This document shows positions 716 to 29,595 of a DNA stretch of 64,000 nucleotides, piece by piece. The stretch's first letter is position 1; each line of letters starts with the position of its first letter. A program made the translations under genes and the position numbers. The notes under the pieces are model-generated. The model searched no databases. It saw only the letters and a program-made list of their open reading frames with translations, and was not told the origin of the DNA. The stretch is from Paludibacter sp. Lineage in GTDB: Bacteria; Bacteroidota; Bacteroidia; Bacteroidales; Paludibacteraceae. The DNA lies in contig JAQUWU010000004.1 of assembly GCA_028692715.1 (NCBI GenBank), forward strand, positions 62,001-126,000, given 5' to 3'.

Positions 716-729
716 AGTGTAAAAATTGA
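716..729 (-). promoter_or_regulatory. Shared pectin-locus motif upstream of kdgK
   Basis: The minus strand reads TCAATTTTTACACT. This matches 13 of 14 bases of the site at 29,554-29,567 and lies the same 34 bp from its -7 element. A weaker copy (ACAAATAGTTCACT) lies exactly 21 bp further upstream at 737-750. It is inferred to be an activator site. Confidence 0.55.
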
Positions 730-933
730 TATTTAAAGTGAACTATTTGTTCGTTATTTAATATCTTAGTATTAAAAAAGAATAAAGATAGAATTTTTAT
801 AAATAATACCGATTGTAAAAACAATACAGCCCAATTTCGACTTTCCCTGCTACAACCAGAGCAAGTTCAGCTTATTGCTTAATTTGTTTGTTCCGATACT
901 CGGAATCTCGAAATACTTGATAAACATCGGCAT

Positions 934-986
934 TACCAACTGTAGACATTCAAAATGAATGGATCATTTTAAATGTACAGTTGGTA
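934..986. terminator. Inverted repeat downstream of uxaC
   Basis: TACCAACTGTA (934-944) is complementary to TACAGTTGGTA (976-986), and the stem continues imperfectly inward. It lies 8 bp past the uxaC stop. There is no clear T tract on the minus strand, so termination is plausible but unproven. Confidence 0.45.
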
Positions 987-993
987 TAAACTA

Positions 994-2400
994 CTAAAAT
1001 TTGAAGAAATTTTTAGCATTGTTGTAACTAATATCTTCTACCATTTTTCCAATAAATTCTAATTCCTGATAAGGTAACAATCCATTTTCCACATCATTAG
1101 CTATCAAATTACAAAGGGTACGTCGGAAATATTCATGTCGTGGATAAGAAAGAAAACTACGTGAGTCCGTTAACATACCAACAAATCTGCTTAACAAACC
1201 AAGAACTGAAAGCGAATTCATTTGTTTTTCCATACCATCTTTTTGATCAAGGAACCACCAACCAGAACCAAATTGAATTTTACCGGCAACTGTACCATCC
1301 TGAAAATTACCAATCATAGTTGCAATCACTTCATTATCAGATGGGTTCAGGTTGTAAAGAATAGTTTTAGCTAGTTTATTATTTGTGTCGAGTCTGTTTA
1401 GAAATTTTGACATAGCTTTGGCAGTATTAAAAGTTCCAATAGAGTCGAAACCAGTATCTGCACCTAACTGGTTAAATAATCGAGTGTTATTGTTTCGAAT
1501 AGCACCGAAATGGAATTGTTGTGTCCAGCCTTTTTCCCAATCCATTTCAGCAAAAATAACCATCATTGCCGATTTGAATTTTAAAATTTCTGAATATGAC
1601 AATTCCTTTCCACCGTAAACTTTATTGAATATTGTTTTGATTTCCAATTCTGTATAATCTTCGGCATAAAATTCTTCAATTCCGTGATCCGAAAGTTTAC
1701 AGCCTTGTTCAGCGAAGAAATCCTGACGTTTTCTTAAGGCCAGAATCATATCGTCAAAAGTAGAGATTGTAATACCGGACACACTTGCAAGTTGTTCAAC
1801 ATAAGCACGGAAATTGGCTGAATCTTCCACCGTCATAGCTTTATCAGGACGCCACGTAGGTAACATTTTTATTTCAAAACCATCTTTTCGAGTTTTAATA
1901 TGGTGTTCCAATGAATCAACAGGGTCATCGGTTGTACAAACAACTTCTACCTTATAATGTCTCATTAAGTTTCTAGCTGTAAATTGTGGTGATTGTAATT
2001 TTTCATTACATTCATCAAATATCTCACGAGCTGTTTTCGGAGAAAGTAATTTTTCGATGCCAAAAGCAGTTTTCAGTTCAAGGTGTGTCCAATGATACAA
2101 TGGATTACGCATCGTGTGAGGTACAGTTTCTGCCCATTTTTCAAATTTCTCCCAATCAGAGCTGTCTTTTCCAGTACAGTATTTTTCATCTATACCGTTG
2201 GTACGCATAGCACGCCATTTATAATGATCGCCACCAAGCCAGGCTTCTGTTATTGATTTAAACTGATGATCATTTGCTACCATTGAAGGTACCAAATGGC
2301 AATGATAATCGATAATAGGTTGAGCAGCAGCATGATTGTGGTATAACTGCTGAGCAGTTTCTGTCTGTAACAAGAAATTTTCGTCTAAGAAGTTTTTCAT
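994..2400 (-). CDS. uxaC: Uronate (glucuronate/galacturonate) isomerase
   Basis: The 468-residue protein has the usual length and sequence of UxaC. It carries the metal-binding amidohydrolase-type motif DYHCHL at residues 31-36 and a closing region rich in Arg/His (DSRSFLSYPRHEYFRR) conserved in the family. The enzyme converts D-galacturonate to D-tagaturonate in the cytoplasm, the first step towards 2-keto-3-deoxygluconate, which KdgK phosphorylates. It faces the same way as kdgK but is separated by 387 bp containing an inverted repeat and a kdgK promoter, so the two genes are probably separate units. Its own promoter is not obvious. The neighbouring pectin locus makes galacturonate the likely substrate, although the family also takes glucuronate. 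Confidence 0.95.
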   Translation of the reverse strand: MKNFLDENFLLQTETAQQLYHNHAAAQPIIDYHCHLVPSMVANDHQFKSITEAWLGGDHYKWRAMRTNGIDEKYCTGKDSSDWEKFEKWAETVPHTMRNPLYHWTHLELKTAFGIEKLLSPKTAREIFDECNEKLQSPQFTARNLMRHYKVEVVCTTDDPVDSLEHHIKTRKDGFEIKMLPTWRPDKAMTVEDSANFRAYVEQLASVSGITISTFDDMILALRKRQDFFAEQGCKLSDHGIEEFYAEDYTELEIKTIFNKVYGGKELSYSEILKFKSAMMVIFAEMDWEKGWTQQFHFGAIRNNNTRLFNQLGADTGFDSIGTFNTAKAMSKFLNRLDTNNKLAKTILYNLNPSDNEVIATMIGNFQDGTVAGKIQFGSGWWFLDQKDGMEKQMNSLSVLGLLSRFVGMLTDSRSFLSYPRHEYFRRTLCNLIANDVENGLLPYQELEFIGKMVEDISYNNAKNFFKF

Positions 2401-2790
2401 GATAATTAATTTTTTAAATCGACTGAATTTTACTTAAAAATTGAATATCCATTCTCAATTTTGAATAAAAATGAGTGAAAGATTAATGAATTTGCAATTT
2501 TTAGATTGAATATGATGAATAGAAATAAACAATATAAGTGTTTTTAAATAGTTTTCAAACAGATAAATTTATTTATCTTACTTAAATACAGTAATATAGA
2601 ATTAAAGCTAAGTTGAGAATTAAAATCCCGTGTTCGCCCACGAAGATACGAATAATTTTATATTTACGAAATAGGAGTATGTTTTCTTTCAAATTATGGA
2701 TCTGTGTACGGATATGGACGGGTTGTATATTTCCTTTAAGTAATCGAATTCAAGTATTGTTGTATTTCTTTATTAAAGATAAAAAATGGA

Positions 2791-2893
2791 ACCTGCCTGC
2801 AGCAGGCAGGTTCAAGTATCTGAATATCATATCGCCTTCAACGATATGATATTCAGATACTTGAACCTTAACCTTCCCAGATTTATCTGGGAA
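2791..2893. repeat. Cluster of three palindromes
   Basis: Three inverted repeats follow one another. ACCTGCCTGC (2791-2800) pairs with 2802-2811 around a single A. A perfect 26-bp stem has arms at 2809-2834 and 2842-2867 with a 7-nt loop. TTCCCAGAT (2874-2882) pairs with ATCTGGGAA (2885-2893). The first two overlap by 3 bp. The GC-rich first palindrome stands out in an AT-rich region. No open frame is supported here. Confidence 0.8.
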
Positions 2894-3200
2894 AAATCTT
2901 TTTTCTTATATTCGCCATTTTCAGTTAAATCATTCAAAATCAGCGTTATATTAACTCTTTTAAATGGAACATTATATAGTTTCATTTACTTATATCTATT
3001 AAATACCGAATAAATAGTGACAAAAAATGAATTTTGATTCTTATTTTTACTCCCTACAATATTATTCAAATGAATTGACTTTTAGACTTATAAAATAAAA
3101 GTTGATTAAGTGATTATTGAAATTCGGAATTTATGGCTCAAATCCCAATCTGTTAAATTGATGAACCTGTTTTATGTGATTATATCCATCTAGAACAATG

Positions 3201-3263
3201 TCAAATTCTCCACATTTAATGATAAAAATTGTACATAAATTAAAATATTCCCCTCTATATTTG
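3201..3263 (+). promoter_or_regulatory. Promoter and shared motif upstream of T9SS methylesterase
   Basis: TCAAATTCTCCACA (3201-3214) is a copy of the pectin-locus motif. A degenerate second copy lies 21 bp later (3222-3235), 34 bp before the perfect -7 element TATATTTG (3256-3263). The nearest TTG is 24 bp from the -7 element, longer than usual. Confidence 0.55.
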
Positions 3264-3550
3264 TAGGAAACGAAAATCACAAAAACCTACTCAAAATATT
3301 GAACTCATTTTGTAGGTAATTATTGAATACCATTTGTTGATAAATAGACAGGGTAAGTAAGTGTTTATTGTACATCTTTCAGATCAATTTTAAGTTTGTA
3401 TTTCAAGTGAATGAAAGTGCAGGATGTTGTAGACAATGATTTGGATTTTTGCGGATGTATTAAAAATCAGTAAAAAGGTACGTAGTCAGATATAAAATAA
3501 AATTCTTACAGTAAATAATATCACTAATGTTAACTTTAAAAAACAATTTT

Positions 3551-6500
3551 ATGAGAAAAAAAATCTTCTTTTCATTTTTTGCGCTATTTACTTGTTTCGC
3601 ATGGTCCGGCGCAGAAATCGTGATTATTCCTTGGGCCGGAGTGAATTACAATTTCAATTTGTGTGATGGAAGTATAATAGCGGCAAATTCCGATGTTAAA
3701 ACGGATGTTGATTATGGTATTTTTAGATCTTATCTGGGTACAGGAGTTCCTTACCAGTATAATGGAGCTCAACATGGTGTTGAGTTTAAAGCCGGAAATA
3801 TCATTGAGCTTGATGTGGCAAGAGATGCAACCATCCGGATAGGTGGTTGCCAGTATTCCGGATCTACCTCTACAATAACAGTTTCCGATAAGAACGGTTC
3901 GTATACAGAAACCGTACTTTCAAAAACACCCACCTGTAACGATACCCTTGATTTCGTATACACTGGTCCTGCAACTACAATAAAGATTGATTTTGGGGTA
4001 GGTAAAACCTATGTTCCAAGTATTGATGTAGTTGCCGGTGATGTTGTTCCTGAAGCAGGTCTGACTTATAATTATAAATTCTTTGACGGGAGTGTGCTTC
4101 CACAAGTTACCACCACCAAATATCCTATGTTTGTCACTGCAGATGGTATCTTGACCATGAACAGCAATACTATTAATACTAGTTTGCAGTTCTGGTATCA
4201 TGATGCTACTCATGGAGTTGTGATGTACCCCGGTACAACAATGAAATTTGCTGTGGCAGGTGATGCTACCATTACTTTCGGGACGTGCCAATACAGTGCA
4301 GCTAACGCTGTGTTTAATATAACCGATGAAACAGGAACAGCTTTAGGAACTACCATCGCCAGCGATAATGGTACAGGTGTTGATGGTTCCCACAGTTTTG
4401 TATACAAAGGTGACGCGGGTTTCGTAACAGCTACTTTAAGCAATACAAGTTCTCCCACAGGTGCTGTTTATATACACTATGCAACTATTGAAAATGAAAA
4501 AGCCAAGACCAGTAAAATTGATTCTTGGGACTTTGGAGCTGCACAACTGGATGCACTTAGGTACAATAACCAGTTAACGGAATCTATAATCAACGGATGG
4601 TATCCGTCAACCGTTACTGCTGGATCAACTGGTGCTGTACTTCCAACTTCTTTCACTGCAGGTGTACTTAGTTGGACAGGTGGCGGTAACGATCGTTTAA
4701 GAACATCAAATACTAATCTGACACGCTATGATGCAAACAGTGCACCCATTACAATTGGTGATTCCGTATTGACAGGTTCACTTTATGTGAATTCGAGTGC
4801 TAATATAAGCAGATATTTTACCCTGTCACTGAGTGAGAACGATGAGGTATATCTATACGTTAAATCAAGTGCTTCCAGCATATTGAACTTTATATATGAA
4901 GATGCTGCCGTGCAATCTGATACTGCTAATGTAAGTTCTGCTGGTCGTGTTGTCAGGTTCGTCGCCAAGAATTCAGGTGAATATAAAATCTATGATTCAT
5001 CAGCTAAACCGTTCTATTATCGTGTTTTGAGAAAAGACGCCACTATGGTAAATGTAAGCGGTGCGATGAACGAGACTGCTGCAGCAGATATTCCTTCCGG
5101 CTATAGAATTGTATTTACAAATCATGCAGGTAAATCATGGAATGCAGTTGTCTCGGGCAGTGCATATGCTGGAAAAGTCCCTGCAGGATTTGAATATATG
5201 TTAAGTCTGGCCAATGCCAATGGTTATATTATCAGCAACGGAACTTCACTTACAGTTGAAAAAGATACTATCTACGAAATTGCCGTTACAAGATTGGAAA
5301 TGTATACCGTAAGCGGATCTTTTTTCGGTCTTAATACTTCACAATTGTCGAAATTAAAACTGAACTACAATCCACCTGCTTCGGCAAATAAAATTTTCAT
5401 TCCTGAAACTATTGTAGATGCAGCCAATGCTACTTATACTGCTAAGTTAGAACCTAACTGCAAATATATGATTACAGCTGATGGCGTGAATGATTTTATT
5501 ATTCCGATTGATTCTATCACCATTCATAAGGTTGATACAACTGTCAATATCACTTTCGAAGCAAAACCCGTATACCCGGTAACAATAACTACAGAAGGAT
5601 TAGTCGATTCACTAAAAACAAAATTAAATGTAGTGTTCACCAATCTGAATGAATCGGGTTATGTGTATAGCTTTGCCGATATGAATAATATTAATCTTAG
5701 GGATGGTGTTTACTCTATTTCTTGTACAGGAGTTGACGATGCGCCTGTGGAATTGGGAGCAACATCCAATATAAGTATTAATAGTGGAGCTGGATCAAAG
5801 GCATTAGCTTTTAAAACTGTCACATTTTGGCCTTTCGACGATGTAGTTATCTCGAACGGGACTGCTGCATACAAAGGTTTACTTTTTACAGGAAATATTT
5901 ATAACGAAATTGCCAAGAGCCATCTGGTTGCCAAAAGTAAAGCAAGTATAGAGGTTCCAATGAATCCGGGTGAAAAATTGACGGTTACTTATTATTATGC
6001 CGCTAAATTCTCCATTGCAGGTGGTGATACAATTTCTACGGCAAGTGGCAGCACAAGCACATACGAAAGTACATCGTATCTGTATCCGGGTTCTGAATCT
6101 GGTTACGTTACAATAGGAACCGGTGCAGCAACGACCTATATCACAGATATAGCAGTTGCTAAAACATTGTCTTATGCCGCGATAATTACAGTTGGTGTTG
6201 ATAAAGACTATCAGACGGTAAACGATGCTCTTAGTGCAGTCCGTTCCATGATTCGTCCAAACAAGGAGCGAGTGAAAATTATGGTTGATCCGGGAAACTA
6301 CGAAGAAATGTTGGTGATTGATGTTGATAGTGTTTCTATTGTTAATGCTTCATCAACTCCAAGTATAGCTTTGGTTAATATGGGCGTTGATATTGATGCC
6401 AATGCCGTCAGAATTACTTCTTATTACGGCCACGGATATAATTACTACAGTATGGGCTCAAACCAGAAATGGAGTGCAGATGTATTGAGAGTGAATAAAG

Positions 6501-7648
6501 AAAACGGATATACAAATTATATTAATACAGGTGGAACTTCAACAAGTGGCTCGTACTGGAATGCTACAGTAGTTGTTTCTGCTCCCGGGTTCGTAGCTAA
6601 GAATATCATTTTTGAGAACTCATATAATCAATACATCTCAATGAAAGAATCGGATGATGTTGTTGAAGAATGGGCTACCGGAGGTAAAGGTACTCGCCCA
6701 ACGGTTATAGGAAGTACCGATGTTCAGGCTAAGAGTTTTGTAGAAAGAGCTGCAGCAATTGCCATTACAAATAGCGGTGATAAAACTGTTCTTGACAAAT
6801 GTAGGGTAGTCGGTCGTCAGGATTCGTTCTACGGAGCTGAAGGAGCAAGAGTTGTTGCTTATAAGGGTTCGCTTATGGGCGGAACCGATTATATATTCGG
6901 AGGTATGACATTGATTTGCTACAAAAGTGATCTGGCAATGAATACAAGTGAAACCAGTACGGACGTGTCTTATATTACTGCTGCACAACAAAGTAGTAGC
7001 CGCGGTTTCCTTATGTATGAATGTACCGTAACTTCTGCAAAACCAGGTACCGAAACAGCTTCTGCCTATTTGTCGAAACCCGGTTTATTTGGTCGCCCAT
7101 GGTTAGGTACTACCAGTGAGGTTGTTTTCTACAATACTATGATTGACTCAACAAACTCTACCGGTTTTGAAGGTAAGTCTCTTATTCAACCCGAAGCATG
7201 GTCGTCGAGTCTTGGAGGAGCTTCAGACAAGTGTTATGAATATGGTACGGTTGAACAATCAGGTGAAGATAATTCTGCAAGTCGAATCTCATGGTCGCAT
7301 GTACTAACGACTCCTGTTTTGACAGATGCTATCGATATTACAACCTTCAACTTTACAAAAGGTACCGATAACTGGGATCCTATTCCCAATTTAATTGTAA
7401 ATGACGTTATAAACGGAGTGATCAAACCTCAGACGGTTTCTTCGGTTAAAATTTATGCCTATGGAAATAAACTTTTTGTTTCTAATATTAAATCGAACAC
7501 AAAAATCAATATTTACGGATTGGATGGCTTGTTAATCAAAACACTTGAAACGGATGTTGACACTAATATTACCCTTCAAAAAGGTCTTTGTATTGTGAAA
7601 GCAATAGCTATTGATGGTAATAAAGTTATAAAAGTGTTAATCCAATAA
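3551..7648 (+). CDS. Multidomain pectin methylesterase (CE8) with T9SS tail
   Basis: I take ATG 3551, which begins a clean signal peptide (MRKKIFFSFFALFTCFAWS); an in-frame ATG at 3527 would add eight residues in front. From the chosen start, two related ~130-residue modules (about residues 20-320) are followed by an unidentified sandwich-like domain (320-500), Ig/carboxypeptidase-like repeats, and a partial third copy of the first module before the catalytic domain. The CE8 domain (about 880-1,280) shows VVGRQDSFYG, GGTDYIFGG, SYITAAQQ and FGRPW, which supply the family's Gln, two Asp and Arg. The last ~65 residues are a type-A T9SS sorting domain. It would remove methyl esters from homogalacturonan outside the cell, preparing it for the lyases. 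A strong terminator follows, so it is probably transcribed alone. It is over three times the length of simple CE8 enzymes. Confidence 0.88.
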   Translation: MRKKIFFSFFALFTCFAWSGAEIVIIPWAGVNYNFNLCDGSIIAANSDVKTDVDYGIFRSYLGTGVPYQYNGAQHGVEFKAGNIIELDVARDATIRIGGCQYSGSTSTITVSDKNGSYTETVLSKTPTCNDTLDFVYTGPATTIKIDFGVGKTYVPSIDVVAGDVVPEAGLTYNYKFFDGSVLPQVTTTKYPMFVTADGILTMNSNTINTSLQFWYHDATHGVVMYPGTTMKFAVAGDATITFGTCQYSAANAVFNITDETGTALGTTIASDNGTGVDGSHSFVYKGDAGFVTATLSNTSSPTGAVYIHYATIENEKAKTSKIDSWDFGAAQLDALRYNNQLTESIINGWYPSTVTAGSTGAVLPTSFTAGVLSWTGGGNDRLRTSNTNLTRYDANSAPITIGDSVLTGSLYVNSSANISRYFTLSLSENDEVYLYVKSSASSILNFIYEDAAVQSDTANVSSAGRVVRFVAKNSGEYKIYDSSAKPFYYRVLRKDATMVNVSGAMNETAAADIPSGYRIVFTNHAGKSWNAVVSGSAYAGKVPAGFEYMLSLANANGYIISNGTSLTVEKDTIYEIAVTRLEMYTVSGSFFGLNTSQLSKLKLNYNPPASANKIFIPETIVDAANATYTAKLEPNCKYMITADGVNDFIIPIDSITIHKVDTTVNITFEAKPVYPVTITTEGLVDSLKTKLNVVFTNLNESGYVYSFADMNNINLRDGVYSISCTGVDDAPVELGATSNISINSGAGSKALAFKTVTFWPFDDVVISNGTAAYKGLLFTGNIYNEIAKSHLVAKSKASIEVPMNPGEKLTVTYYYAAKFSIAGGDTISTASGSTSTYESTSYLYPGSESGYVTIGTGAATTYITDIAVAKTLSYAAIITVGVDKDYQTVNDALSAVRSMIRPNKERVKIMVDPGNYEEMLVIDVDSVSIVNASSTPSIALVNMGVDIDANAVRITSYYGHGYNYYSMGSNQKWSADVLRVNKENGYTNYINTGGTSTSGSYWNATVVVSAPGFVAKNIIFENSYNQYISMKESDDVVEEWATGGKGTRPTVIGSTDVQAKSFVERAAAIAITNSGDKTVLDKCRVVGRQDSFYGAEGARVVAYKGSLMGGTDYIFGGMTLICYKSDLAMNTSETSTDVSYITAAQQSSSRGFLMYECTVTSAKPGTETASAYLSKPGLFGRPWLGTTSEVVFYNTMIDSTNSTGFEGKSLIQPEAWSSSLGGASDKCYEYGTVEQSGEDNSASRISWSHVLTTPVLTDAIDITTFNFTKGTDNWDPIPNLIVNDVINGVIKPQTVSSVKIYAYGNKLFVSNIKSNTKINIYGLDGLLIKTLETDVDTNITLQKGLCIVKAIAIDGNKVIKVLIQ

Positions 7649-7668
7649 GTTGGAATTTCCAATGAATT

Positions 7669-7703
7669 AAAGAGGTTGTTCATATTGAACAACCTCTTTT
7701 TTT
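7669..7703 (+). terminator. Rho-independent terminator after methylesterase
   Basis: A perfect 14-bp stem (7669-7682 with 7686-7699), a 3-nt loop and a T tract. Confidence 0.9.
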
Positions 7704-7823
7704 ACTATCAGATTTTTAAGTATTTATGTGGTAGAAAAAAATATATTTAGGCTTTTGTAATCTTACTTCATTCATAGAATCATAACTTCAATAAAATGAA
7801 AAAAAGGACAATAAGTATTTAAG

Positions 7824-7887
7824 TCAAATATTCCACAGTAAAAGGTCAATTTTTGAACATAATAAAAATGTCATAGTCCTACTTTTG
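7824..7887 (+). promoter_or_regulatory. susC promoter with two motif copies
   Basis: TCAAATATTCCACA (7824-7837) and TCAATTTTTGAACA (7846-7859) are direct copies 22 bp apart. They begin 56 and 34 bp before TACTTTTG (7880-7887), a perfect TAnnTTTG element. The nearest TTG is 24 bp away. The leader to the susC ATG is about 45 nt. Confidence 0.6.
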
Positions 7888-7935
7888 TTTACGTAAAGTT
7901 ATAATCTATTAATAATTGTAATACATGAGTAAACA

Positions 7936-10900
7936 ATGAATGAATCAAAAAAACTAAAACAACGACTTTTTAGGCGGATGTTGATGAGCTTGCTTACTGT
8001 ACTTTTCACTTTTAATGCGCTGAATGCACAAGTGAAATCAGTTACAGGAATTGTAAAAGATGCCAATGGCGAAGCTATTATTGGTGCAACTGTAAGGGTA
8101 AATGGTACAACAATTGGTGCAGTAACGAATTTAGATGGACAATTTATTTTAAGTGTCCCGGCAAATGCTAAAACCTTAGATATTTCATATGTAGGTATGA
8201 AAAATCAGGAAGTTTCCATTAAATCCGGAAAAATAATTGTTACACTTATTGAAGATACGCAAATATTAAATGAAGTGGTGGCAATTGGATATGGAACTGC
8301 TAGACGTAAAGATATAACTGGTTCTGTTTCTTCAATTAATGCCGAAGCAATTTCTTCTGTTCCGGTTTCTTCTGCTATCGAAGCTATGTCAGGAAAGCTG
8401 GCTGGTGTACAAATTACAACTACTGAAGGTTCGCCCGATGCTGAAATGAAAATCCGTGTTCGTGGTGGAGGTTCTATCACGGGTGATAATACTCCATTAT
8501 TTATTGTTGATGGATTTCCTGTAAATTCAATTAATGATATTGCTCCTAATGATATCGAATCTATTGATGTATTAAAGGATGCATCTTCAACAGCTATTTA
8601 TGGATCCCGTGGTGCAAATGGGGTTGTAATAGTAACAACAAAAAGTGGAAAAGTAGGGAAAATCAATGTTAACTATAACGCCTATGTTAGTTGGAAGAAA
8701 ATTGCAAAAACTTTGGATGTTTTAACAGCACAAGATTATGCTAAATGGCAATACGAATTAGCATTGTTAGATAATGATAATGATCCTTCCAGTTACGAAA
8801 AATTCTTTGGTAATTATCAGGATATTGATTTGTACGATAACGTAGCAACAAATAATTGGCAACAACAGGTTTTTGGTCAAACAGGGTTTACTTTCAATCA
8901 TAATTTAAGCATTGATGGTGGAACTGATAAAAGTAAATTTGCATTCAATTATAGTCGCATAGATGATAAAGCTATTATGCAACTATCTAATTTCAAACGC
9001 GATAATCTTAGCTTGAAATTGTCAAATAAACCAACAAAAAATATTAGTATCGATTTTTCTACCCGTTATTCAGGAACAGAAATTAATGGTGGGGGAGCAA
9101 ATGAGCAAAACGAGAAATCAAGTGCTGATTCCCGGTTGAAATATGCCATGTTATATACACCATTCCCAATTAAAAACTTTACATCCGACAGTGGCGCAGC
9201 TGATGATACTGAAGACAGTAACTTATATAACCCATTAGTTGCCATTCCCGATAATAACCAAAAACGCGAACGTATTACATTTAATATGGCGGGTAGTGTT
9301 ACTTGGGAAGTTATTGATAATTTAAAATTGAAAACAGATTTTGGCTATGATGATTACAGAAATAATGATAGTCGCTTTTATGGTACGACTACTTATTATG
9401 TAAAAAACCTAAGTAATACAGCCCTTAATACAGTAGCCGGATTTCCTGCTGTAATTCTTACAAATACAGCTCAAAGCACATTTCGAAACACGAATACTTT
9501 AAATTATGATTTTAAAAAGCTATTGACTAATAAAAATCACCATTTAAATATATTGTTGGGACAGGAATATATACTTGAACAATCTCAAGTATTAACTAAT
9601 AATATACAAGGATTCCCTTCAAATTTCACTTCAGACAATGCATTTAAATTGACAACTCAGGGAGTGCCTCTTGAAACAAACAATTTTTATAGTCCTAATG
9701 ACGTACTCTTATCTTTCTTTGGACGTGCAAATTATGATTATATGAGTCGTTATCTGTTAAGTGCAACATTCCGTGCCGATGGCTCAAGTAAATTTTCGCC
9801 AGGAAATCAATGGGGTTATTTCCCTTCAGCTGCTTTTGCCTGGAGAGTTTCGTCAGAACCTTTTATGGAATCAACAAAAAGTTGGCTCGACGATATGAAA
9901 CTTCGCGTAAGTTTAGGCTCAGCAGGAAATAATAATATTCCTTCAGGACAAATTGCTCAATCTTATGAATCGAAAACAACATCGTGGATAGATGGAATAA
10001 GTTCTTATTGGGCTCCATCAAAAACAATGTCGAATCCTGATTTGAAATGGGAAACTACTGTTACAAGAAATATCGGATTGGACTTTACTCTTTTGAAAAG
10101 TTCATTAAGTGGATCATTGGAAGTGTATCTGAATACAACATCCGATTTGTTAATCCAATTTCCAGTCGCAGGTACCGGATACGATTACCAATATAGAAAT
10201 ATGGGCGAAACCGAAAACCGTGGACTTGAGGCTACTTTGAATTGGTTTGCAATCGATAAGAAAAATTACGGCTTGAGTTTTAGTGGAAATATCGGATTCA
10301 ATAAGAACAAAATAAATTCTTTGGGAATAATGAGTGATTTTGGATCTGCATCAGGTTGGGCATCAACTGAAGTAAATAATGATTATTGGATTGCAAAAGG
10401 CGGCTCTGTAGGTGAAATGTTTGGTTATATATCTGATGGTAGATACGAAGTTTCAGATTTTTCAGGTTACGACGAAGCTACCGGTAAATGGATATTGAAT
10501 AGTGATGTAACTGACTGTACGGCAGTAATTGGAACATTAAGACCAGGTTCGATGAAGTTAAAAGATTTAAATGATGATGGTAAAGTTACCGAAGATGATA
10601 ATGACCGTACAATTATTGGTAATACAAATCCTGTTCACACAGGAGGTATGAGTTTAAATGGCCGTTTGTATGGATTTGATTTATCTGCAAATTTCAATTG
10701 GAGCGTTGGTAACGATATATACAATGCCAATAAAATTGAATATACTTCAACCAGTAAATATCAATATAGAAATATGATTTCGATAATGTCGGATGGTTCT
10801 CGTTGGACGAATTTGAATGCTGATGGTACAATTAATAATAATCCGGATGAATTGGCTGCAATGAATGCAAACACAACAATGTGGTCGCCTTATATGAAGA

Positions 10901-11178
10901 AATTTGTTTTCTCCGACTGGGCTGTTGAGGATGGATCATTCCTTCGTTTAAATACATTAACTTTGGGATATACATTACCAACAACTGTTGTAGGCAAACT
11001 GAAAATTCAGAAACTCAGATTGTATGTAACCGGATATAATGTGTTTACTTTAACAAATTATACAGGTTTCGATCCTGAAGTGTCAACTCGTCGTAAAACG
11101 GCTTTAACCCCAGGAGTTGATTATTCGGCATATCCCAAAAGTCGTCAGATATTAGTAGGTTTGAATTTGAATTTTTAA
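7936..11178 (+). CDS. SusC/RagA-family TonB-dependent outer membrane transporter
   Basis: The 1,080-residue protein has a signal peptide ending at about residue 31 (FNALNAQ) and a carboxypeptidase-regulatory-like domain (about 35-115, VTGIVKDANGEAIIGATV). A TonB-dependent plug follows (about 125-235), with the SusC signature GYGTARRKDITGSVSSI and KDASSTAIYGSRGANGVV, and then a large beta-barrel ending in Phe (GLNLNF), as outer membrane barrels do. It would import pectic oligosaccharides with energy from TonB, capped by the SusD lipoprotein encoded 21 bp downstream. The promoter carries two copies of the locus motif. Substrate is inferred from neighbours only. Confidence 0.95.
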   Translation: MNESKKLKQRLFRRMLMSLLTVLFTFNALNAQVKSVTGIVKDANGEAIIGATVRVNGTTIGAVTNLDGQFILSVPANAKTLDISYVGMKNQEVSIKSGKIIVTLIEDTQILNEVVAIGYGTARRKDITGSVSSINAEAISSVPVSSAIEAMSGKLAGVQITTTEGSPDAEMKIRVRGGGSITGDNTPLFIVDGFPVNSINDIAPNDIESIDVLKDASSTAIYGSRGANGVVIVTTKSGKVGKINVNYNAYVSWKKIAKTLDVLTAQDYAKWQYELALLDNDNDPSSYEKFFGNYQDIDLYDNVATNNWQQQVFGQTGFTFNHNLSIDGGTDKSKFAFNYSRIDDKAIMQLSNFKRDNLSLKLSNKPTKNISIDFSTRYSGTEINGGGANEQNEKSSADSRLKYAMLYTPFPIKNFTSDSGAADDTEDSNLYNPLVAIPDNNQKRERITFNMAGSVTWEVIDNLKLKTDFGYDDYRNNDSRFYGTTTYYVKNLSNTALNTVAGFPAVILTNTAQSTFRNTNTLNYDFKKLLTNKNHHLNILLGQEYILEQSQVLTNNIQGFPSNFTSDNAFKLTTQGVPLETNNFYSPNDVLLSFFGRANYDYMSRYLLSATFRADGSSKFSPGNQWGYFPSAAFAWRVSSEPFMESTKSWLDDMKLRVSLGSAGNNNIPSGQIAQSYESKTTSWIDGISSYWAPSKTMSNPDLKWETTVTRNIGLDFTLLKSSLSGSLEVYLNTTSDLLIQFPVAGTGYDYQYRNMGETENRGLEATLNWFAIDKKNYGLSFSGNIGFNKNKINSLGIMSDFGSASGWASTEVNNDYWIAKGGSVGEMFGYISDGRYEVSDFSGYDEATGKWILNSDVTDCTAVIGTLRPGSMKLKDLNDDGKVTEDDNDRTIIGNTNPVHTGGMSLNGRLYGFDLSANFNWSVGNDIYNANKIEYTSTSKYQYRNMISIMSDGSRWTNLNADGTINNNPDELAAMNANTTMWSPYMKKFVFSDWAVEDGSFLRLNTLTLGYTLPTTVVGKLKIQKLRLYVTGYNVFTLTNYTGFDPEVSTRRKTALTPGVDYSAYPKSRQILVGLNLNF

Positions 11179-11199
11179 ATTGTAAAAATTAAGAAAAAA

Positions 11200-12984
11200 A
11201 TGAAAAATATAATATTAAAAACATTTTTAGGCATATTGATAGCTGGAACAGTGAGTTCTTGTTCCGATGTGTTAGATGCGCCAGCTCAATCATCGTTGGA
11301 TGAAGGTATAATTTTTTCAACTCCGGTTTTGGCGGAAGGTGCTGTAATGGGAATACATCAATCCTTTTTAGAAACAAATTCATATAGAGGTCGTTTCATT
11401 CCGTTTTATGGTATGAATACAGATGTTGAATGGTACAACTCTTCTGAAAACGTAACGGACGACCGTGCATTATTAACCGGTTATAATCCAAGTGTTAGTA
11501 GTATTCAGATGAATTCGGACAATAATGCTTGGGCAAAAATGTATGAAGCTATAGAACGTGCAAATTTGTGTATCAGAGGTTTAAGAACCTACGGTAATAT
11601 CGAATCAAACAGTGAATTAGCCCACTTATTAGGCGAATCGCTTACTTTAAGAGCATTTATTTATAATGATTTGGTTAAAGCATGGGGCGATGTTCCTGCA
11701 CGTTTTGAGCCAATTACAGGAATTACAATTTATATTCCAAAATCTGATAGAGATGTTATTTACAAACAGATTCTGTCCGATTTACTCGAAGCAGAAGATC
11801 TTGTTGCATGGCCAAATGCCTCAACTATAACAAGTTCAACGGAGAGAGTGAACAAAGCATTTGTTAAAGGTTTACGTGCTAGAATTGCATTAGCAGCTGC
11901 AGGATATGGACAACGTCCGGATGGAACTATTCGCAGAAGTACTGATCCTGAACTAACCGTTGAAAAAATGTACACGATTGCAAAAAATGAATGTTTGGAT
12001 GTTATTGCAAGTGAAACATGTACACTTGGTAGCTTTGAAAAAAACTTTCGCAATTTATGTCAGGATGATGTGACTGCCGGTTTGGAATCACTTTATGAAT
12101 TACCTTTTTCTGAAGGTCGTGGTCGTGTATTGTACACTTTTGGTGTAAAACATACAACTATCGATAAATATACAAGTCAGACTCAGGGAGGGGCAAATGG
12201 ACCTCTTCCATATCTTTACTATGATTATGACAAAGATGATATTCGTCGTGATATTACTTGTGTACCTTACGAATGGACTGATGGAAAACAGGTTCCCAGA
12301 AAGTTAAGTTCATGGTGTTTTGGTAAACTTCGTTATGAATGGATGAATCGTGTGGTTTCTTCTACAAATGATGATGGAGTGAATTGGCAGGTAATGCGTT
12401 ATGCAGATATTTATTTAATGGCTGCTGAAGCTATTAATGAACTGGAAGGGCCCACAAATGCAGAACCATATCTTAAAAAGATACACGAACGTGCTTTCCC
12501 AAATAATCCGGATAAAGTAACAACATTTATGAATGCAGCAGATGTTAGTAAAGAATCGTTTTTCAATGCAATTGTTGAAGAAAGAGGATTTGAATTTGCC
12601 GGAGAAATGCTTAGAAAATCAGACTTAATTCGTTGGAATTTACTTTCAACAAAATTAATCGAAGCAAGAGACAAATTGGAAGCACTTGCTAACCGTACTG
12701 GGAAATATGCTGATTTACCTATATCTATTTATTACAAAACTGCCGATGATGGCGAAACAGTGCAAATTTATGGTTTGGAACATGGCGATACCGACGAAGC
12801 AGGAGTGGCGCTTGGTTATGAATCTACAAAAGGATGGTTTGTAAGTAATGGATTAAATAATCTTACTGATGTTAAAATTAACTCAATTTATCAAAAAGAT
12901 CCCGATACTCGACAGTTTTGGCCTATTTGGAAAACATTTATTGACTCTAGCAACGGTTTGCTTACGAATGATTACGGTTATTAA
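11200..12984 (+). CDS. SusD/RagB-family nutrient-binding lipoprotein
   Basis: The 594-residue protein begins with a lipoprotein signal peptide (LIAGTVSSC, lipid-attached Cys about residue 21). It contains the SusD TPR-like helices, seen in LRAFIYNDLVKAWGDVP (about 150-166), and the C-terminal SusD region with RYADIYLMAAEAINE and EERGFEFAGE. It would sit on the cell surface as the lid of the SusC transporter and bind pectic oligosaccharides. The gene follows susC by 21 bp and precedes a third lipoprotein gene by 27 bp, so the three form one transcript that ends at a terminator near 14,615-14,656. Specificity cannot be read directly. Confidence 0.95.
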   Translation: MKNIILKTFLGILIAGTVSSCSDVLDAPAQSSLDEGIIFSTPVLAEGAVMGIHQSFLETNSYRGRFIPFYGMNTDVEWYNSSENVTDDRALLTGYNPSVSSIQMNSDNNAWAKMYEAIERANLCIRGLRTYGNIESNSELAHLLGESLTLRAFIYNDLVKAWGDVPARFEPITGITIYIPKSDRDVIYKQILSDLLEAEDLVAWPNASTITSSTERVNKAFVKGLRARIALAAAGYGQRPDGTIRRSTDPELTVEKMYTIAKNECLDVIASETCTLGSFEKNFRNLCQDDVTAGLESLYELPFSEGRGRVLYTFGVKHTTIDKYTSQTQGGANGPLPYLYYDYDKDDIRRDITCVPYEWTDGKQVPRKLSSWCFGKLRYEWMNRVVSSTNDDGVNWQVMRYADIYLMAAEAINELEGPTNAEPYLKKIHERAFPNNPDKVTTFMNAADVSKESFFNAIVEERGFEFAGEMLRKSDLIRWNLLSTKLIEARDKLEALANRTGKYADLPISIYYKTADDGETVQIYGLEHGDTDEAGVALGYESTKGWFVSNGLNNLTDVKINSIYQKDPDTRQFWPIWKTFIDSSNGLLTNDYGY

Positions 12985-13011
12985 TTATGATCCTTTAAAT
13001 TATAAATTGTT

Positions 13012-17614: not shown

Positions 17615-17660
17615 TTCAACTACTGTCGGATTATTTACAACTGACAGCAGTTGAATTTTT
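17615..17660 (+). terminator. Terminator after the GH28-GH105 pair
   Basis: A 13-bp stem with one mismatch (17615-17627 with 17643-17655) followed by five T. Confidence 0.75.
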
Positions 17661-17690
17661 CTGATTAATATGAGTATTAATAAATAGAAT

Positions 17691-19349: not shown

Positions 19350-19364
19350 AAAAATATCTTTAAA

Positions 19365-20756: not shown

Positions 20757-20762
20757 AGTAGA

Positions 20763-21713: not shown

Positions 21714-21775
21714 GCAATCATTATTTTGATTTGAAAAAGAAATAAAATATATATTTACCTTAAAATCTAAAAATC

Positions 21776-23131: not shown

Positions 23132-23161
23132 ACATAATACTCAAAATCAATACGTAAAAAA

Positions 23162-24979: not shown

Positions 24980-25120
24980 ATAGTTCCAAATTTTTTTAAC
25001 TCGCTATCCTCTATTGGATAAAATGATTTACTTTCCCTTACCTGTTAAAAATAATTGACCCAAATTCATAGAGTATATTATCTATTTTTTAAGTTGATAA
25101 AATCATGTGTATTAAATATG

Positions 25121-25162
25121 TCATTTTCTCCACATAATACTTTTAATCTAAAACTACTTTCG
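25121..25162 (+). promoter_or_regulatory. Promoter and shared motif upstream of PL9
   Basis: TCATTTTCTCCACA (25121-25134) starts 34 bp before TACTTTCG (25155-25162), a one-base variant of TAnnTTTG. There is no -33 TTG at normal spacing. The words ACTTTCG and ACGTCAAGTTATAA resemble the susC start region (ACTTTTG, ACGTAAAGTTATAA). Confidence 0.5.
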
Positions 25163-25199
25163 TAACGTCAAGTTATAAGAAAATCTTAATTTAATCATT

Positions 25200-27923
25200 A
25201 TGAAAAGAATTTACACATTAGTTCTTATTGTGTTTTGTTTTATTGGATTATCATCTGCCAGAACAATTTATGTTTCTACTTCCGGAAATGATTCAAATCC
25301 CGGAACTGAAATCTCACCTTATCTAAACATACAAAAATCAGTTGATGAAGCGCAACCCGGTGATATGATTTATCTTCGTGGTGGAACTTATATGCTTACC
25401 AAACGGGTTAAGATTGAAAAAGCGGGAACAGAAATGGCTAGAATCAGTATGTTTGCCTATCCGGGCGAACGGGTTATTATTGATGGAACAAACCAAGTTG
25501 TGACCAGTGTAAATGATTTTAAACAAGCCCGTTGTTTCTACGTCAATCATTTTGGTGATTACTGGCATTTCAAAAATCTTGAATTTTGCAATGCAAAAGA
25601 TAATGGACTGAAGCTGGAAGGAAGTTACAATATCGTTGAGAATTGTAAATTCTATAATAATAATGATACCGGTCTTCAAATTGGAATGTATAAAGATTTC
25701 TCAATAGAAGAAACACAATCGTTTCCTATCTCGGGCGAACCTCAATTTAATCCGAATTATAGTTATTGCAAATATAATCAGGTAATCAATTGCGATGCAT
25801 GGAATAATTACGATAGTAAATCATTTAGTGGTAGCGATGATGGTGGTGATGCTGATGGATTTGCCTGTAAACTTTTTCCGGGTCCGGGAACTGAATTTCA
25901 CGGTTGCCGTGCATGGAATAATTCTGATGATAACTGGGATTTATACATGGTGTATCATCCAATCGTAATTGAGAAATGTTGGAGTTGGAACGCAGGTAAA
26001 AGATCCGATGGGTCAACACCCGGTAATGGAAACGGATTTAAACTTGGTGGCGGTGGAACAGCTGGAGGAGCCGCATTTGCACAGTCGGTTGGTGCTCATG
26101 TAGTTCATAATTGTGTTGCTTTTGATTGTGCTCATAAAGGATTCGATCAGAATAACGCTTATGAGGCAATGTATTTGTTTAATAATGTGTCATTTGGTAA
26201 TGAATATAACTACCGATTCCCAACCATTTTTATGTACGGTACTATGTACATGCGTAATAATATTGGGTTCAAACCAACAGTTTTGAATCATGAATTCCTT
26301 TCAATTGATAAAGTTGGAGCACAAGTACCAAATACAGACTATAATAGCTGGACAACTTTTGATGGTTGCGATCCATATAAAGATGGAAATAAAGTAGATG
26401 GTACAAAAGTATTTGTTCAGGATCATGCTGCTCAATTTAAAAGTGTATCATCCGATTTGTTTCTTGCTGATCGTCAGACTGATGGAAGTTTGCCGGATAA
26501 TGATTTCTGTAAATTAATTACAGGAAGTAAATTTATCAATGCCGGTGAAAATGTTGAGAATTTTTCTCCGGCTGCACACAGTCCGGGTGGATTAACTTTA
26601 GCTCCGATTTCAATACTTTACAATGATGGAAAAGCGGATATGGGTGCTTTTGAAACAGGTGATCCAACAACAGCAACTTTTTCACTTATTTCAGGTAAAG
26701 CAAATCAATTTGTATTTACCGGGACTGCCATTCAAACAACAATTTATAAATGGGGTGGGGCTGCAACTGATGTAACTGTAAGCGATGTTCCTGCTGGACT
26801 CATTGTAGTGAAAGATGCTATTGCAAAAACGGTTACTATCTCTGGAATCCCAACAGCTGAAGGTATCTACTCAATTGTAAACGTTGGAGGTACAAATACT
26901 ATAACATTAACAGGAACAATTAAAATTTCGACTGTAGCACCGGCTATTTTACAACTCACATCCGGAAAAGCTGCTCAGGAAGTATTTTTTGAAAATGCAA
27001 TTGAGACAATGGTATTTACCTGGGGTGGAGGTGCTACCGATGTTACATATACTGCACTTACTGCAGGTTTACAAGCGGTAAAAGATGCAACCGCCAAAAC
27101 CTTAACCATTTCAGGAATTCCTTCAGATGATGGCTTATTCGCCGTAAGTTCAGTTGGAGGAATGGAAGGATCGGTAGTTGAATTCAATTGTAATATAACC
27201 CGTGTCTTGCCAACAAAAATTTTGACAGGCGATTGGTATCATTTACAGGATTCAATAAATCATTTACCTGCAGATTTGCAAAACGTACTTTCTATCGGGA
27301 CTACAAACAGTTCTTATCCTACTGTGTTGAATCCTGTATATGTAGAATCAACCGATTCTGCTCCAAGTGGTTGTACTATTGGTGCAATTAATGTAGAACG
27401 TAGTGGTGGTTATGTTCAGTGGACAATACCTAGTTTAGTGGAATTGAAATCAAATATTCATTTTACAGGAACACGTACTCTTAATGTTGAATGGACAATA
27501 GATGGTGTTACAAAAACATGGACTTCTGCGTCTTTAAGTAAACAGACTATGCTTAACTGGGATCTGATGCTAGCCATTGGGTTGGAACCAACAAAAAAAC
27601 CGGTAACAATAAAATTTATCAATACTACTTCATCAGGAGGAATAAGAATGTACGATTTCTATGTGCAAACCTATGATGTTCCTTCAGTTATTGAATCAGT
27701 AAAAGTTCAGGAAACCCAATTTCCGATGTATCAGACTGAAACAGCATTGATAGTTTATGGCGAAATATCTTCATTGAAGGTGTTTAATTTATCAGGTAGG
27801 TTAGTCTCTGAATCAATTATGTCACAATTAGTAGAAACAAACAAATTAAACAAAGGGGTTTATCTTGTTCAAGTAAAAGATAAAGCCGGACGAATTATAA
27901 ATCAGAAATTCATAAAAAATTAA
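25200..27923 (+). CDS. Pectate lyase, PL9 family, with T9SS tail
   Basis: The 907-residue protein has a signal peptide (about 1-20) followed by TIYVSTSGNDSNPGTEISPY, the usual opening of PL9. The calcium and catalytic region is SGSDDGGDADGFACKL (about 210-225), where the Asp cluster binds calcium and the Lys is the family's base. After the beta-helix (to about 490) come two related ~90-residue domains (about 495-670, GKANQFVFTGTAIQTTIYKW and GKAAQEVFFENAIETMVFTW), a sandwich domain of unknown type (about 680-820), and a T9SS tail. It cuts polygalacturonate outside the cell. Its own promoter carries the locus motif. The weak hairpin after the stop suggests a single-gene unit or partial read-through to GH105. 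Confidence 0.92.
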   Translation: MKRIYTLVLIVFCFIGLSSARTIYVSTSGNDSNPGTEISPYLNIQKSVDEAQPGDMIYLRGGTYMLTKRVKIEKAGTEMARISMFAYPGERVIIDGTNQVVTSVNDFKQARCFYVNHFGDYWHFKNLEFCNAKDNGLKLEGSYNIVENCKFYNNNDTGLQIGMYKDFSIEETQSFPISGEPQFNPNYSYCKYNQVINCDAWNNYDSKSFSGSDDGGDADGFACKLFPGPGTEFHGCRAWNNSDDNWDLYMVYHPIVIEKCWSWNAGKRSDGSTPGNGNGFKLGGGGTAGGAAFAQSVGAHVVHNCVAFDCAHKGFDQNNAYEAMYLFNNVSFGNEYNYRFPTIFMYGTMYMRNNIGFKPTVLNHEFLSIDKVGAQVPNTDYNSWTTFDGCDPYKDGNKVDGTKVFVQDHAAQFKSVSSDLFLADRQTDGSLPDNDFCKLITGSKFINAGENVENFSPAAHSPGGLTLAPISILYNDGKADMGAFETGDPTTATFSLISGKANQFVFTGTAIQTTIYKWGGAATDVTVSDVPAGLIVVKDAIAKTVTISGIPTAEGIYSIVNVGGTNTITLTGTIKISTVAPAILQLTSGKAAQEVFFENAIETMVFTWGGGATDVTYTALTAGLQAVKDATAKTLTISGIPSDDGLFAVSSVGGMEGSVVEFNCNITRVLPTKILTGDWYHLQDSINHLPADLQNVLSIGTTNSSYPTVLNPVYVESTDSAPSGCTIGAINVERSGGYVQWTIPSLVELKSNIHFTGTRTLNVEWTIDGVTKTWTSASLSKQTMLNWDLMLAIGLEPTKKPVTIKFINTTSSGGIRMYDFYVQTYDVPSVIESVKVQETQFPMYQTETALIVYGEISSLKVFNLSGRLVSESIMSQLVETNKLNKGVYLVQVKDKAGRIINQKFIKN

Positions 27924-27931
27924 TATCTTTG
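27924..27931 (+). promoter_or_regulatory. Possible -7 element upstream of the second GH105
   Basis: TATCTTTG matches TAnnTTTG directly after the PL9 stop codon. No TTG is visible at the -33 distance and no shared motif was found, so this is weak. Confidence 0.3.
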
Positions 27932-27960
27932 TAATCCTGTCAGTTACACAATTGTCAGGA
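27932..27960 (+). terminator. Weak hairpin after PL9
   Basis: ATCCTG pairs with CAGGAT, extended by a few pairs after one mismatch, followed by a T-rich stretch. It may attenuate rather than end transcription. Confidence 0.4.
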
Positions 27961-28009
27961 TTTACAATTTTCTTATTTTACTATTATTGATTAAAAACTT
28001 AATTTCAAC

Positions 28010-29476
28010 ATGAGTATCAAATCAAATTTTATCCTGTCAGTATTGTTGGTCTTTTCTTTTAGCATATTTGCCGAAACCATTCCTTATTCTCAACGTATGA
28101 CAAATTCCCAAATGTCGCGTAGTGGATCATTAAGTAGTTGGGATTATCCCGATGGCCTTTTTGTGGAATCGATTTTAAAAGTCTATGCTAAATATGGTGG
28201 AAGCACCTATTACAATTATGCTTTGAACTATGCAAAAGCAACTGTTAATTCAACCACAGGAAAAATAGGGTCTGGTTATAGTTTTACAGCCTATACATTA
28301 GACAACGTCAATCCTGGAATGTTTTTGCTGGATGTTTATAACAGGGATGGCTCGTCACAATTTAAAATTGCATTGGACACTTTATACAAACAATTGCAAA
28401 AACAGCCACGAACTACTGATGGCGGTTATTGGCATAAACAAACCTATCCAAATCAAATGTGGCTCGATGGATTGTATATGGGAACACGTTATTATGCAGC
28501 ATACGAAAAGCAATTTGACAATGGTTTAAAATATGATGATATCGTAAACCAATTTGTGCTGATTCACAGTAAAACATACGACCCGGAATTCCAGTTGAAT
28601 TATCATGCATGGTCGGCAACCCCGACGGATGCGAACTCGTTTTGGGCAAATGAGAATGACCCATTTAAAGGTTGTTCTAAAGAATTTTGGGCTCGTGGAT
28701 TGGGATGGTATGCTGCGGCATTGGTCGATGTGTTGGAAATTTTACCTGAAAATTATGCAAAACGGCAAGAATTGTTGGATATTCTGAATCAGGTAGCAGC
28801 CGGTATAAAACGCTGGCAAGATCCTGTAAGTGGTTGTTGGTATCAATTGCTTCGCTATGATAGTTCAATGACATCTAATGGAACACCGAATTATATTGAA
28901 GCATCAGCATCCAGTATGTATACTTATGCACTCCTTAAAGCTATTCGTTTAAATTTGATATCGAATGCCGATTATTTACCAACTGCCACAAAGGCGTATC
29001 AGGGATTGCTTGATAATTTTATTTCGCAAGATTCAAATGGTAATTTATCGTTAAACCGAATTTGTCGTTCAGCCGGATTAGGACCAGCATCCAATACTTC
29101 GCGCGATGGAACTATTAATTATTACCTGAATGGGAGCGATGCCGGAAGTATTGTTTCTAATGATTTAAAAGGTGTTGGACCATTTATTATGGCCAGTGTG
29201 GAATATGAAACATTGAATAATTCAACTGCAACTATAACTTTAAAAAAAAACTCAAATAGTCAATACAATGTTGTAAGTAATAAGAATAATGTAAGAATTC
29301 AGTCTCCAGTAAATAATATTTCAGATGTAAGTATTTACAATTCAAATGGTATTGAAATAAATCATTGGCAAGGTCGCGATTATAGTGAAGTTTTAATTCC
29401 ACTTTCAAACTTTCGACAAGGATTATACTTTTTTAGAATTAATGGCTATGTATTAAAACGGATTATTAATATTTAA
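28010..29476 (+). CDS. GH105 unsaturated uronyl hydrolase with T9SS tail
   Basis: The 488-residue protein has a signal peptide (about 1-21) and a GH105 alpha/alpha-barrel (about 25-405). Segments include GGYWHKQTYPNQMWLDGLYM with the likely catalytic Asp near residue 153, and FWARGLGWYAAALVDVLE. The final ~80 residues form a type-A sorting domain (VSIYNSNGIEINHW ... RQGLYFFRINGYVLKR). GH105 enzymes normally work in the cytoplasm or periplasm, so a T9SS tail, which directs release or anchoring outside, is notable. A run of nine A at 29,242-29,250 lies at the junction between the barrel and the tail. Confidence 0.9.
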   Translation: MSIKSNFILSVLLVFSFSIFAETIPYSQRMTNSQMSRSGSLSSWDYPDGLFVESILKVYAKYGGSTYYNYALNYAKATVNSTTGKIGSGYSFTAYTLDNVNPGMFLLDVYNRDGSSQFKIALDTLYKQLQKQPRTTDGGYWHKQTYPNQMWLDGLYMGTRYYAAYEKQFDNGLKYDDIVNQFVLIHSKTYDPEFQLNYHAWSATPTDANSFWANENDPFKGCSKEFWARGLGWYAAALVDVLEILPENYAKRQELLDILNQVAAGIKRWQDPVSGCWYQLLRYDSSMTSNGTPNYIEASASSMYTYALLKAIRLNLISNADYLPTATKAYQGLLDNFISQDSNGNLSLNRICRSAGLGPASNTSRDGTINYYLNGSDAGSIVSNDLKGVGPFIMASVEYETLNNSTATITLKKNSNSQYNVVSNKNNVRIQSPVNNISDVSIYNSNGIEINHWQGRDYSEVLIPLSNFRQGLYFFRINGYVLKRIINI

Positions 29477-29505
29477 TGCGTTTGTAATTTATTCCTATTC
29501 AAGCT

Positions 29506-29551
29506 AAAAATGCAGAAAAATTGACCTAAAAGTCAATTTTTCTGCATTTTT
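29506..29551. terminator. Strong hairpin terminator after GH105
   Basis: A perfect 20-bp stem (29506-29525 with 29532-29551), a 6-nt loop and T-rich ends on both strands. Its right arm also contains TCAATTTTTCTGCA (29533-29546), which lies exactly 21 bp before the locus motif at 29554. Confidence 0.85.
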
Positions 29552-29553
29552 AG

Positions 29554-29595
29554 TCAATTTTTACACAAGGTTTTAATGATTAAATTATATATTTG
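29554..29595 (+). promoter_or_regulatory. Promoter and shared motif upstream of the interrupted T9SS gene
   Basis: TCAATTTTTACACA (29554-29567) starts 34 bp before the perfect -7 element TATATTTG (29588-29595). No -33 TTG is seen. A second copy 21 bp upstream overlaps the terminator stem. Confidence 0.55.

Follow-up and report, generated by a model that had tools for sequence, protein, structure and literature searches.

In Bacteroides, hybrid two-component systems (HTCSs) form one of the main classes of glycan regulators (PMC11253607), and their binding sites are direct repeats at an average distance of 21 bp (PMC3878776). In electrophoretic mobility shift assays, the receiver and DNA-binding domains of one of them, BT4124, bind its susC promoter in a phosphorylation-dependent manner (PMC11253607). 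The subject of the present analysis is a stretch of 64,000 nucleotides, hereafter the window, which corresponds to positions 62001-126000 of contig C37 in a 4.85 Mb draft genome of the genus Paludibacter (Bacteroidales). In this window, five promoters of a pectin gene set share a 14-bp box whose distance from the -7 element is fixed, and a second copy of the box lies further upstream at some of them. The two boxes are read here as half-sites of one binding element for a clade of AraC-type HTCSs, which would be activators sensing pectin fragments; a probability of roughly 0.8 is assigned to this reading.

The closest described systems are the rhamnogalacturonan regulons HTCS_Rgu-1 (BT4111/BT4124) and HTCS_Rgu-2 (BT4178/BT4182) of Bacteroides thetaiotaomicron, which also depend on AraC-type HTCSs with a periplasmic sensor and whose sites are direct repeats of 12 bp with a 9-bp spacer or of 14 bp with a 6-bp spacer (PMC3878776). 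They, too, control pectin lyases, esterases and SusC/SusD proteins, and the likeness to the Paludibacter element described here is one of geometry and targets. SusR-like regulons also have direct repeats on one face of the DNA and polysaccharide targets, but the repeat centres are 67 or 77 bp apart there and 21-22 bp here (PMC3878776); both SusR and LacI were rejected as binders on architecture. Other differences concern the genes controlled. In B. thetaiotaomicron, according to the relevant passages of PMC3878776, HTCS_Hep and HTCS_Fru are the only HTCS regulons with inner-membrane transporters and cytoplasmic kinases among their members, and the breakdown of glucuronate and galacturonate is assigned to LacI-type regulators such as KdgR and UxaR, whereas in Paludibacter kdgK carries an HTCS-type site in seven genomes. 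The Paludibacter set nevertheless has the marks of an HTCS regulon, namely a regulator with its domains in one chain, a direct repeat near 21 bp, and SusC/SusD and polysaccharide targets conserved across the genomes that bear the regulator.

The geometry of the element is directly readable from the coordinates (Table 1). An earlier note made from the sequence had claimed that the proximal box starts 34 bp before the -7 element at four promoters, and exactly this distance was obtained at all of them: kdgK (729 to 695, minus strand), susC (7846 to 7880), the PL9 pectate lyase gene (25121 to 25155) and a gene of the type IX secretion system (T9SS) class (29554 to 29588). The 55-56 bp claimed for the clearest copies at the pectin methylesterase (PME) gene and at susC were measured as 55 (3201 to 3256) and 56 (7824 to 7880), respectively. 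Further copies 21-22 bp outward were confirmed as well, and every coordinate and distance of the note that was compared with the sequence proved right. These copies are convincing at susC and at the PME gene (probability of such a distal box at a random place 2e-5 and 5e-5) and weak at the T9SS gene (0.001) and kdgK (0.003), the T9SS-gene copy at 29533 lying in the arm of a perfect inverted repeat (29504..29553), a likely terminator for the GH88 gene before it.

It is the composite, not the 14-mer by itself, that carries the signal. The 14-mer alone, with at most two mismatches, occurs 27 times in the window against a shuffle mean of 23.5, and 22 of 100 shuffles reach 27, so that it is at chance and was rejected as evidence. 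With at most three mismatches, the composite (14-mer, N20, TAnnTTTG) occurs 46 times in this genome against 19 times for the pattern read backwards; with at most two mismatches, the counts over 40 genomes of the genus are 145 against 20. A position matrix was then built from 21 sites of six relatives, none from this genome. Because the training sites had been chosen with the proximal-plus-(-7) pattern of the earlier note, this test is independent only for the distal part of the element. Distal offsets of 19-24 were allowed; the best-scoring one is 21 or 22 in 20 of the 21 training sites and 19 in the remaining one, some of the distal boxes being weak. In the window the matrix ranks first exactly the five promoters said to share the motif, with scores of 51.4, 38.4, 29.4, 28.5 and 17.3; the next independent place scores 9.2 and the highest among 20 simulated windows 12.9. 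The lowest of the five, at the PL9 gene, is not significant genome-wide by itself, other stretches of the genome reaching 14.2 and 16.0, and the site is accepted because PL9 homologues in five relatives (58-81% identity) carry it.

The spacing was also examined with a boxes-only model, built from the relatives without the -7 element and run on 14 genomes outside the training set, with matches listed at E<0.05. An exact TAnnTTTG lies at offset 34 in 33 of the 52 listed matches (37 with at most one mismatch), and the remaining 45 offsets of the range 16-61 account for five exact copies in total, including two at 55, where the model was placed on the distal box. The matches without a -7 element at 34 are mostly among the weaker ones. 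Eight of the 52 matches and four of the 33 come from this genome, two of those four being the same sequence at two contig ends; when this genome, the source of the pattern, is left out, 29 of 44 matches have the exact -7 element at 34. The motif is therefore not equally frequent without a -7 element at that distance. A chance AT-rich motif shared by five promoters, which the lack of enrichment of the 14-mer alone would allow, was already refuted by this held-out spacing test, and composite enrichment and recurrence at homologous genes also speak against it; its probability is negligible. The same element is seen at the end of G000:C54 and at the start of G000:C77, probably as an assembly overlap or repeat.

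The -7 element TAnnTTTG is exact in four of the five window promoters, the PL9 promoter having one mismatch. The promoter recognized by Sigma-ABfr reads TTTG-N19-TAnnTTTG, with 19 bp between the two boxes. Measured against it, the window promoters have the -7 part and lack a TTTG at -33 about 19 bp from it. As had been claimed, no TTG occurs within 4 bp of the expected place (22 bp upstream of the -7 element) in any of the five promoters; within the 60 bp upstream of the -7 element, TTGs were found only at 27, in the PME and susC promoters. The place of the missing -33 box is covered by the proximal box. It has been reported that the TTTG around -33 has a variable spacing and that the -33 box could not be identified in Flavobacterium johnsoniae (PMC7366714). 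In this phylum the -33 box is not so clearly defined, so that its absence alone is weak evidence of activation. The rigid distance to a -7-like box would also fit the view that the boxes are not activator sites but parts of a longer promoter read by an alternative sigma factor. Against this view, TAnnTTTG is the housekeeping form of the -7 box, and a pair of repeats on one helical face, 21-22 bp from each other, is not the pattern of a sigma factor. The distal box, moreover, may stand either 21 or 22 bp away, and the genomes in which the element occurs follow the presence of an HTCS. This explanation is consequently very improbable, and a sigma factor of the extracytoplasmic function (ECF) type is disfavoured.

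Conservation and target genes were assessed from 82 matches, comprising 77 of the 96 listed at E<1e-3 and five weaker ones from this genome; the counts that follow refer to matches listed. An open reading frame (ORF) of at least 100 aa stands behind 80 of the 82 sites, and its first ATG lies 11-83 bp past the match end in 67 of these 80. The element is conserved upstream of homologous pectin genes in relatives, as the earlier note had expected: it precedes close susC homologues in 15 genomes (100% identity in this one, 43-71% in the others), 10 PL9 homologues (32-100%), three large methylesterases in relatives (55-61%), five GH28 homologues (26-31%) and 13 T9SS-tailed genes beside the HTCS described below. 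The seven genomes in which kdgK has the site include four among the 82 matches, with G048, G051 and this genome added from the boxes-only matches. The site was also found before one rhamnogalacturonan lyase of family 11 and before four similar proteins of about 400 aa, the one tested being a PF09492 pectic acid lyase. Some site-bearing matches precede genes without an evident pectin role, and two of the 82 sites (in G046 and G037) have no ORF of at least 100 aa downstream. The G046 site (L200:9462-9529) is strong (E 1.4e-8), but the roughly 700 bp that follow it contain no ATG-started ORF reaching 100 aa; it may be a relic or a chance match.

The earlier note had suggested an activator such as an AraC-type hybrid two-component regulator, encoded outside the window. 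Among 30 HTH_18 matches in the genome there is a 1454-aa HTCS on the same contig, about 9 kb past the window end, and this protein is most likely the regulator of these sites. It carries Reg_prop sensor propellers, Y_Y_Y, HisKA, HATPase_c, Response_reg and HTH_18 domains in one chain, and its neighbours are a methylesterase, a LacI regulator, UxaE and a PfkB kinase. Its receiver contains a SHIP motif, which is part of the conserved inhibitory S/CHIP-DK motif of the BT4124 and BT4663 receiver-DNA-binding-domain proteins; that biochemistry comes from another genus, and the passages of the source that describe it give no promoter geometry (PMC11253607). Between the HTCS and a divergent T9SS-tailed gene lies a further copy of the element. 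Strict orthologues of the HTCS (sensor identity 56-100%) occur in 14 of the 40 genus genomes; a clear gap separates them from the nearest other class, whose identity is 39% or lower. Among the matches listed, 12 of the 14 genomes have an element in the divergent promoter adjacent to the HTCS, G044 has one before a T9SS-tailed gene upstream of the HTCS on the same strand, and none is listed next to the HTCS of G050.

Sites and regulator clade occur together. With the clade delimited at a sensor E<=1e-150, fixed before the site search, and a site cut-off of E<1e-4, chosen after the table had been seen, the best site passes in 20 of 20 genomes with the clade versus 2 of 20 without (Fisher 1.7e-9); when the six training genomes are removed, the figures are 14 of 14 versus 2 of 20 (8.6e-8). 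The orthologue loci L246-L249 and L251 were all matched by the full model (5/5), and they are apparently contigs of G048, G041, G044, G045 and G017, which had already been used, so that they add nothing independent.

Several observations weigh against the proposed reading. At the promoters themselves, PL9 has no distal box (P 0.70), the distal copy at kdgK is weak, and the one at the T9SS gene also belongs to the terminator arm. The association is weaker for the strict orthologue only (>=56%), namely 14 of 14 versus 8 of 26 genomes (p 1.4e-5), and 8 of 8 versus 8 of 18 (p 7e-4) without the training genomes, because six genomes have strong sites together with a 35-39% identical relative and two more are exceptions. 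These two, G046 and G037, have a site and no HTCS match of this clade, and relaxing the cut-off to 1e-3 would add G016, which also lacks the HTCS, as a third exception. The p values are optimistic, since genomes of one genus are not independent. Five loci with HTCS homologues of 28-40% identity (L250, L252, L253, L254, L260) gave one weak partial match with the full model (R1), in L254. In addition, among the relatives in the six genomes, the DNA-binding domain in G038 is 45% identical to that of the orthologue and lacks RTVFFNKLK, and that of G032 was not found in the draft.

These six genomes (G001, G013, G014, G032, G038, G051), which have strong sites, only a related HTCS and no strict-orthologue match, are the main argument for the view that another AraC-family regulator or a related HTCS, such as the paralogue clade of 35-39% identity, binds the element and that the HTCS adjacent to the pectin genes is not the main regulator. 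In G013, G014, G001 and G051 the relative resembles the orthologue in the DNA-binding domain (49-52% identity, with RTVFFNKLK in common), and a paralogue of this kind (C14) lies next to a GH28 gene in the present genome. However, the site stands in the adjoining divergent promoter of most strict orthologues, as given above. No site was found within the 14-kb surroundings of the C14 paralogue (L234, best matrix score 6.1), which was rejected as the regulator for this reason. The orthologue of G032 may merely be missing from the draft, where an element of the HTCS-neighbour type lies on a small contig. A different main regulator is thus considered unlikely. Most likely, the half-site is common to one HTCS clade, in which a relative replaces the orthologue elsewhere. 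The susC homologues in G013, G014, G001 and G051 (L239, L240, L241 and L236) keep the element, although the HTCS seen in these genomes is a 35-39% identical relative and not the orthologue. Replacement of the sensor with a conserved site code is a possible interpretation of these four genomes.

On the reading that the boxes are half-sites for the HTCS clade, the following mechanism can be proposed. The HTCS would sense pectin fragments in the periplasm, and signal-dependent phosphorylation would lead its DNA-binding domains to dimerize on GTCAAWWWTnCAC-(7/8)-GTCAATTTTnCACAT, with half-sites that face the same side of the DNA at a distance of two helical turns. A half-site that lies over the -33 place and keeps a constant distance to a good -7 element is expected of class-II AraC-family activators, which contact the polymerase. 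The proximal half-site, over the place of the missing -33 box and 34 bp from the TAnnTTTG, would accordingly allow RNA polymerase to be recruited in class-II fashion, and the susCD pair, lyases, methylesterases, GH28 and 2-keto-3-deoxygluconate (KDG) kinase would be switched on together. From the architecture and the genomic distribution we infer which protein binds, its signal, and activation rather than repression; the class-II contact with polymerase would be a further step beyond the assignment of the site to the HTCS clade. A broader view is that a single HTCS lineage governs the whole of pectin use, from outer-membrane uptake through lyases and methylesterases to the cytoplasmic KDG kinase. 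It would do so by means of a rigid class-II-like promoter in which the proximal half-site stands in for the -33 box, exactly 34 bp from the -7 element, and whose site code is kept even where a 35-39% identical sensor has taken over. This view is speculative and rather doubtful.

The kind of system is already known and no new principle is involved; the rigid geometry that replaces the -33 box and the inclusion of a probable KDG kinase gene among the targets are modestly new details. The passages of PMC3878776 on HTCS sites state no distance to the -7 element, and a search for a published value, limited to a few of the papers listed, found none. One limited search, of titles only, found no title on such a regulon in Paludibacter. 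The analysis links promoter architecture to a regulator and its regulon in this genus, and it offers a falsifiable rule, according to which the proximal half-site stands exactly 34 bp from the -7 element, over the -33 place. If general, the distance rule would help to predict HTCS targets and to explain activation without a -33 box, and if other HTCSs obey it, HTCS-dependent promoters could be read from any Bacteroidota genome. Upstream regions of 60 non-pectin susC genes (16 from G000, 17 from G017, 27 from G005) were sampled, HTCS- and ECF-sigma-controlled ones being unsorted. An exact TAnnTTTG was present in 33 of the 60 (40 candidates). Direct-repeat similarity showed no peak for a start at -34 combined with a spacing of 21-22, and in no repeat were 11 or more of the 14 letters identical; in so mixed a sample this result is weak but negative.

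Table 1. Promoter elements and genes considered in the analysis (positions refer to the window unless a contig is named)
Feature	Sequence	Position	Strand	Remark
kdgK		1..606	-	PfkB family; 25.8-bit cut-off exceeded; cut by window edge
Palindrome at kdgK	TTGGTTGACCAA	648..659	+	downstream of kdgK -7 element; overlaps second TAnTTTTG
kdgK -7 element	TATTTTTG	688..695	-	
kdgK proximal box	TCAATTTTTACACT	716..729	-	offset 34 from -7 element
kdgK weak distal box		737..750	-	21 bp upstream; distal score 6.9
PME distal box	TCAAATTCTCCACA	3201..3214	+	exact to consensus of the earlier note; distal score 17.1
PME degenerate proximal box		3222..3235	+	proximal score 1.6
PME -7 element	TATATTTG	3256..3263	+	
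Large PME gene		3527..7648	+	PF01095; 1373 aa
susC distal box	TCAAATATTCCACA	7824..7837	+	distal score 20.1; spacing 22
susC proximal box	TCAATTTTTGAACA	7846..7859	+	
susC -7 element	TACTTTTG	7880..7887	+	
susC-susD pair		7936..12984	+	pectin utilization locus
PL9 proximal box	TCATTTTCTCCACA	25121..25134	+	no distal copy
PL9 -7 element	TACTTTCG	25155..25162	+	one mismatch to TAnnTTTG
PL9-type pectate lyase gene		25200..27923	+	Pel9A-like beta helix; T9SS tail match below cut-off
Perfect 22-bp inverted repeat		29504-29525/29532-29553	+	6-nt loop; 3' arm contains T9SS-gene distal box 29533-29546
T9SS-gene proximal box	TCAATTTTTACACA	29554..29567	+	exact
T9SS-gene -7 element	TATATTTG	29588..29595	+	
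T9SS-type gene		29640..31475	+	tail match just below cut-off
Element copy between HTCS and divergent T9SS-tailed gene		C37:134799-134840		matrix score 41.1
AraC-type HTCS gene		C37:135024-139388 (L022:9024-13388)		1454 aa

The pectin gene set of the window consists of kdgK, the glucuronate isomerase gene uxaC, the large PME gene, susC/susD, GH28 and GH88 genes, two genes for PelZ-like pectate lyases, another methylesterase gene, the PL9 gene, a second GH88 gene and the T9SS-type gene. The PelZ-like proteins are below the NCBIfam cut-off, and one of them matches a solved pectate lyase at 5e-79. Elsewhere in the genome, the matches at C27:57870 (between the genes of a group II intron maturase and a helicase), C71:2635 and C22:58834 were judged to be chance and were excluded from the regulon, and most composite matches with three mismatches were, as a group, likewise judged to be chance and not counted as members. 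Two further places are possible members: the one at C98:4175 has a full-model E of 3.6e-4 and lies 222 bp before a small ORF, and that at C108:74015, beside a sodium:solute symporter gene, scores 22.5, but its -7 element overlaps the listed start.

The product of kdgK is probably a KDG kinase, although the KDG-kinase NCBIfam models match its 202-aa fragment below their cut-offs. Outside the window kdgK is followed, after a gap of 157 bp, by a gene for 2-keto-3-deoxy-6-phosphogluconate aldolase and then by a gene for a transporter of the major facilitator superfamily, both of which may be co-transcribed with it. In five kdgK promoters, that of the window and those of G013, G015, G017 and G032 (L142, L198, L206, L225), the palindrome TTGGTCRACCAA (gene strand) lies over a second TAnTTTTG which starts 28-32 bp downstream of the first -7 element. 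This position suggests an added repressor at kdgK. The palindrome is possibly the operator of a second, LacI-type regulator, which would give dual control, and this repressor is perhaps the LacI protein encoded beside the HTCS.

Finally, in the T9SS-type gene, codon 14 of the frame that starts at ATG 29640 is a stop (TAG, 29679-29681), which falls within the apparent signal peptide. Its promoter element is intact despite the stop codon, and a 64% identical homologue in G002 is a 635-aa ORF behind an element.

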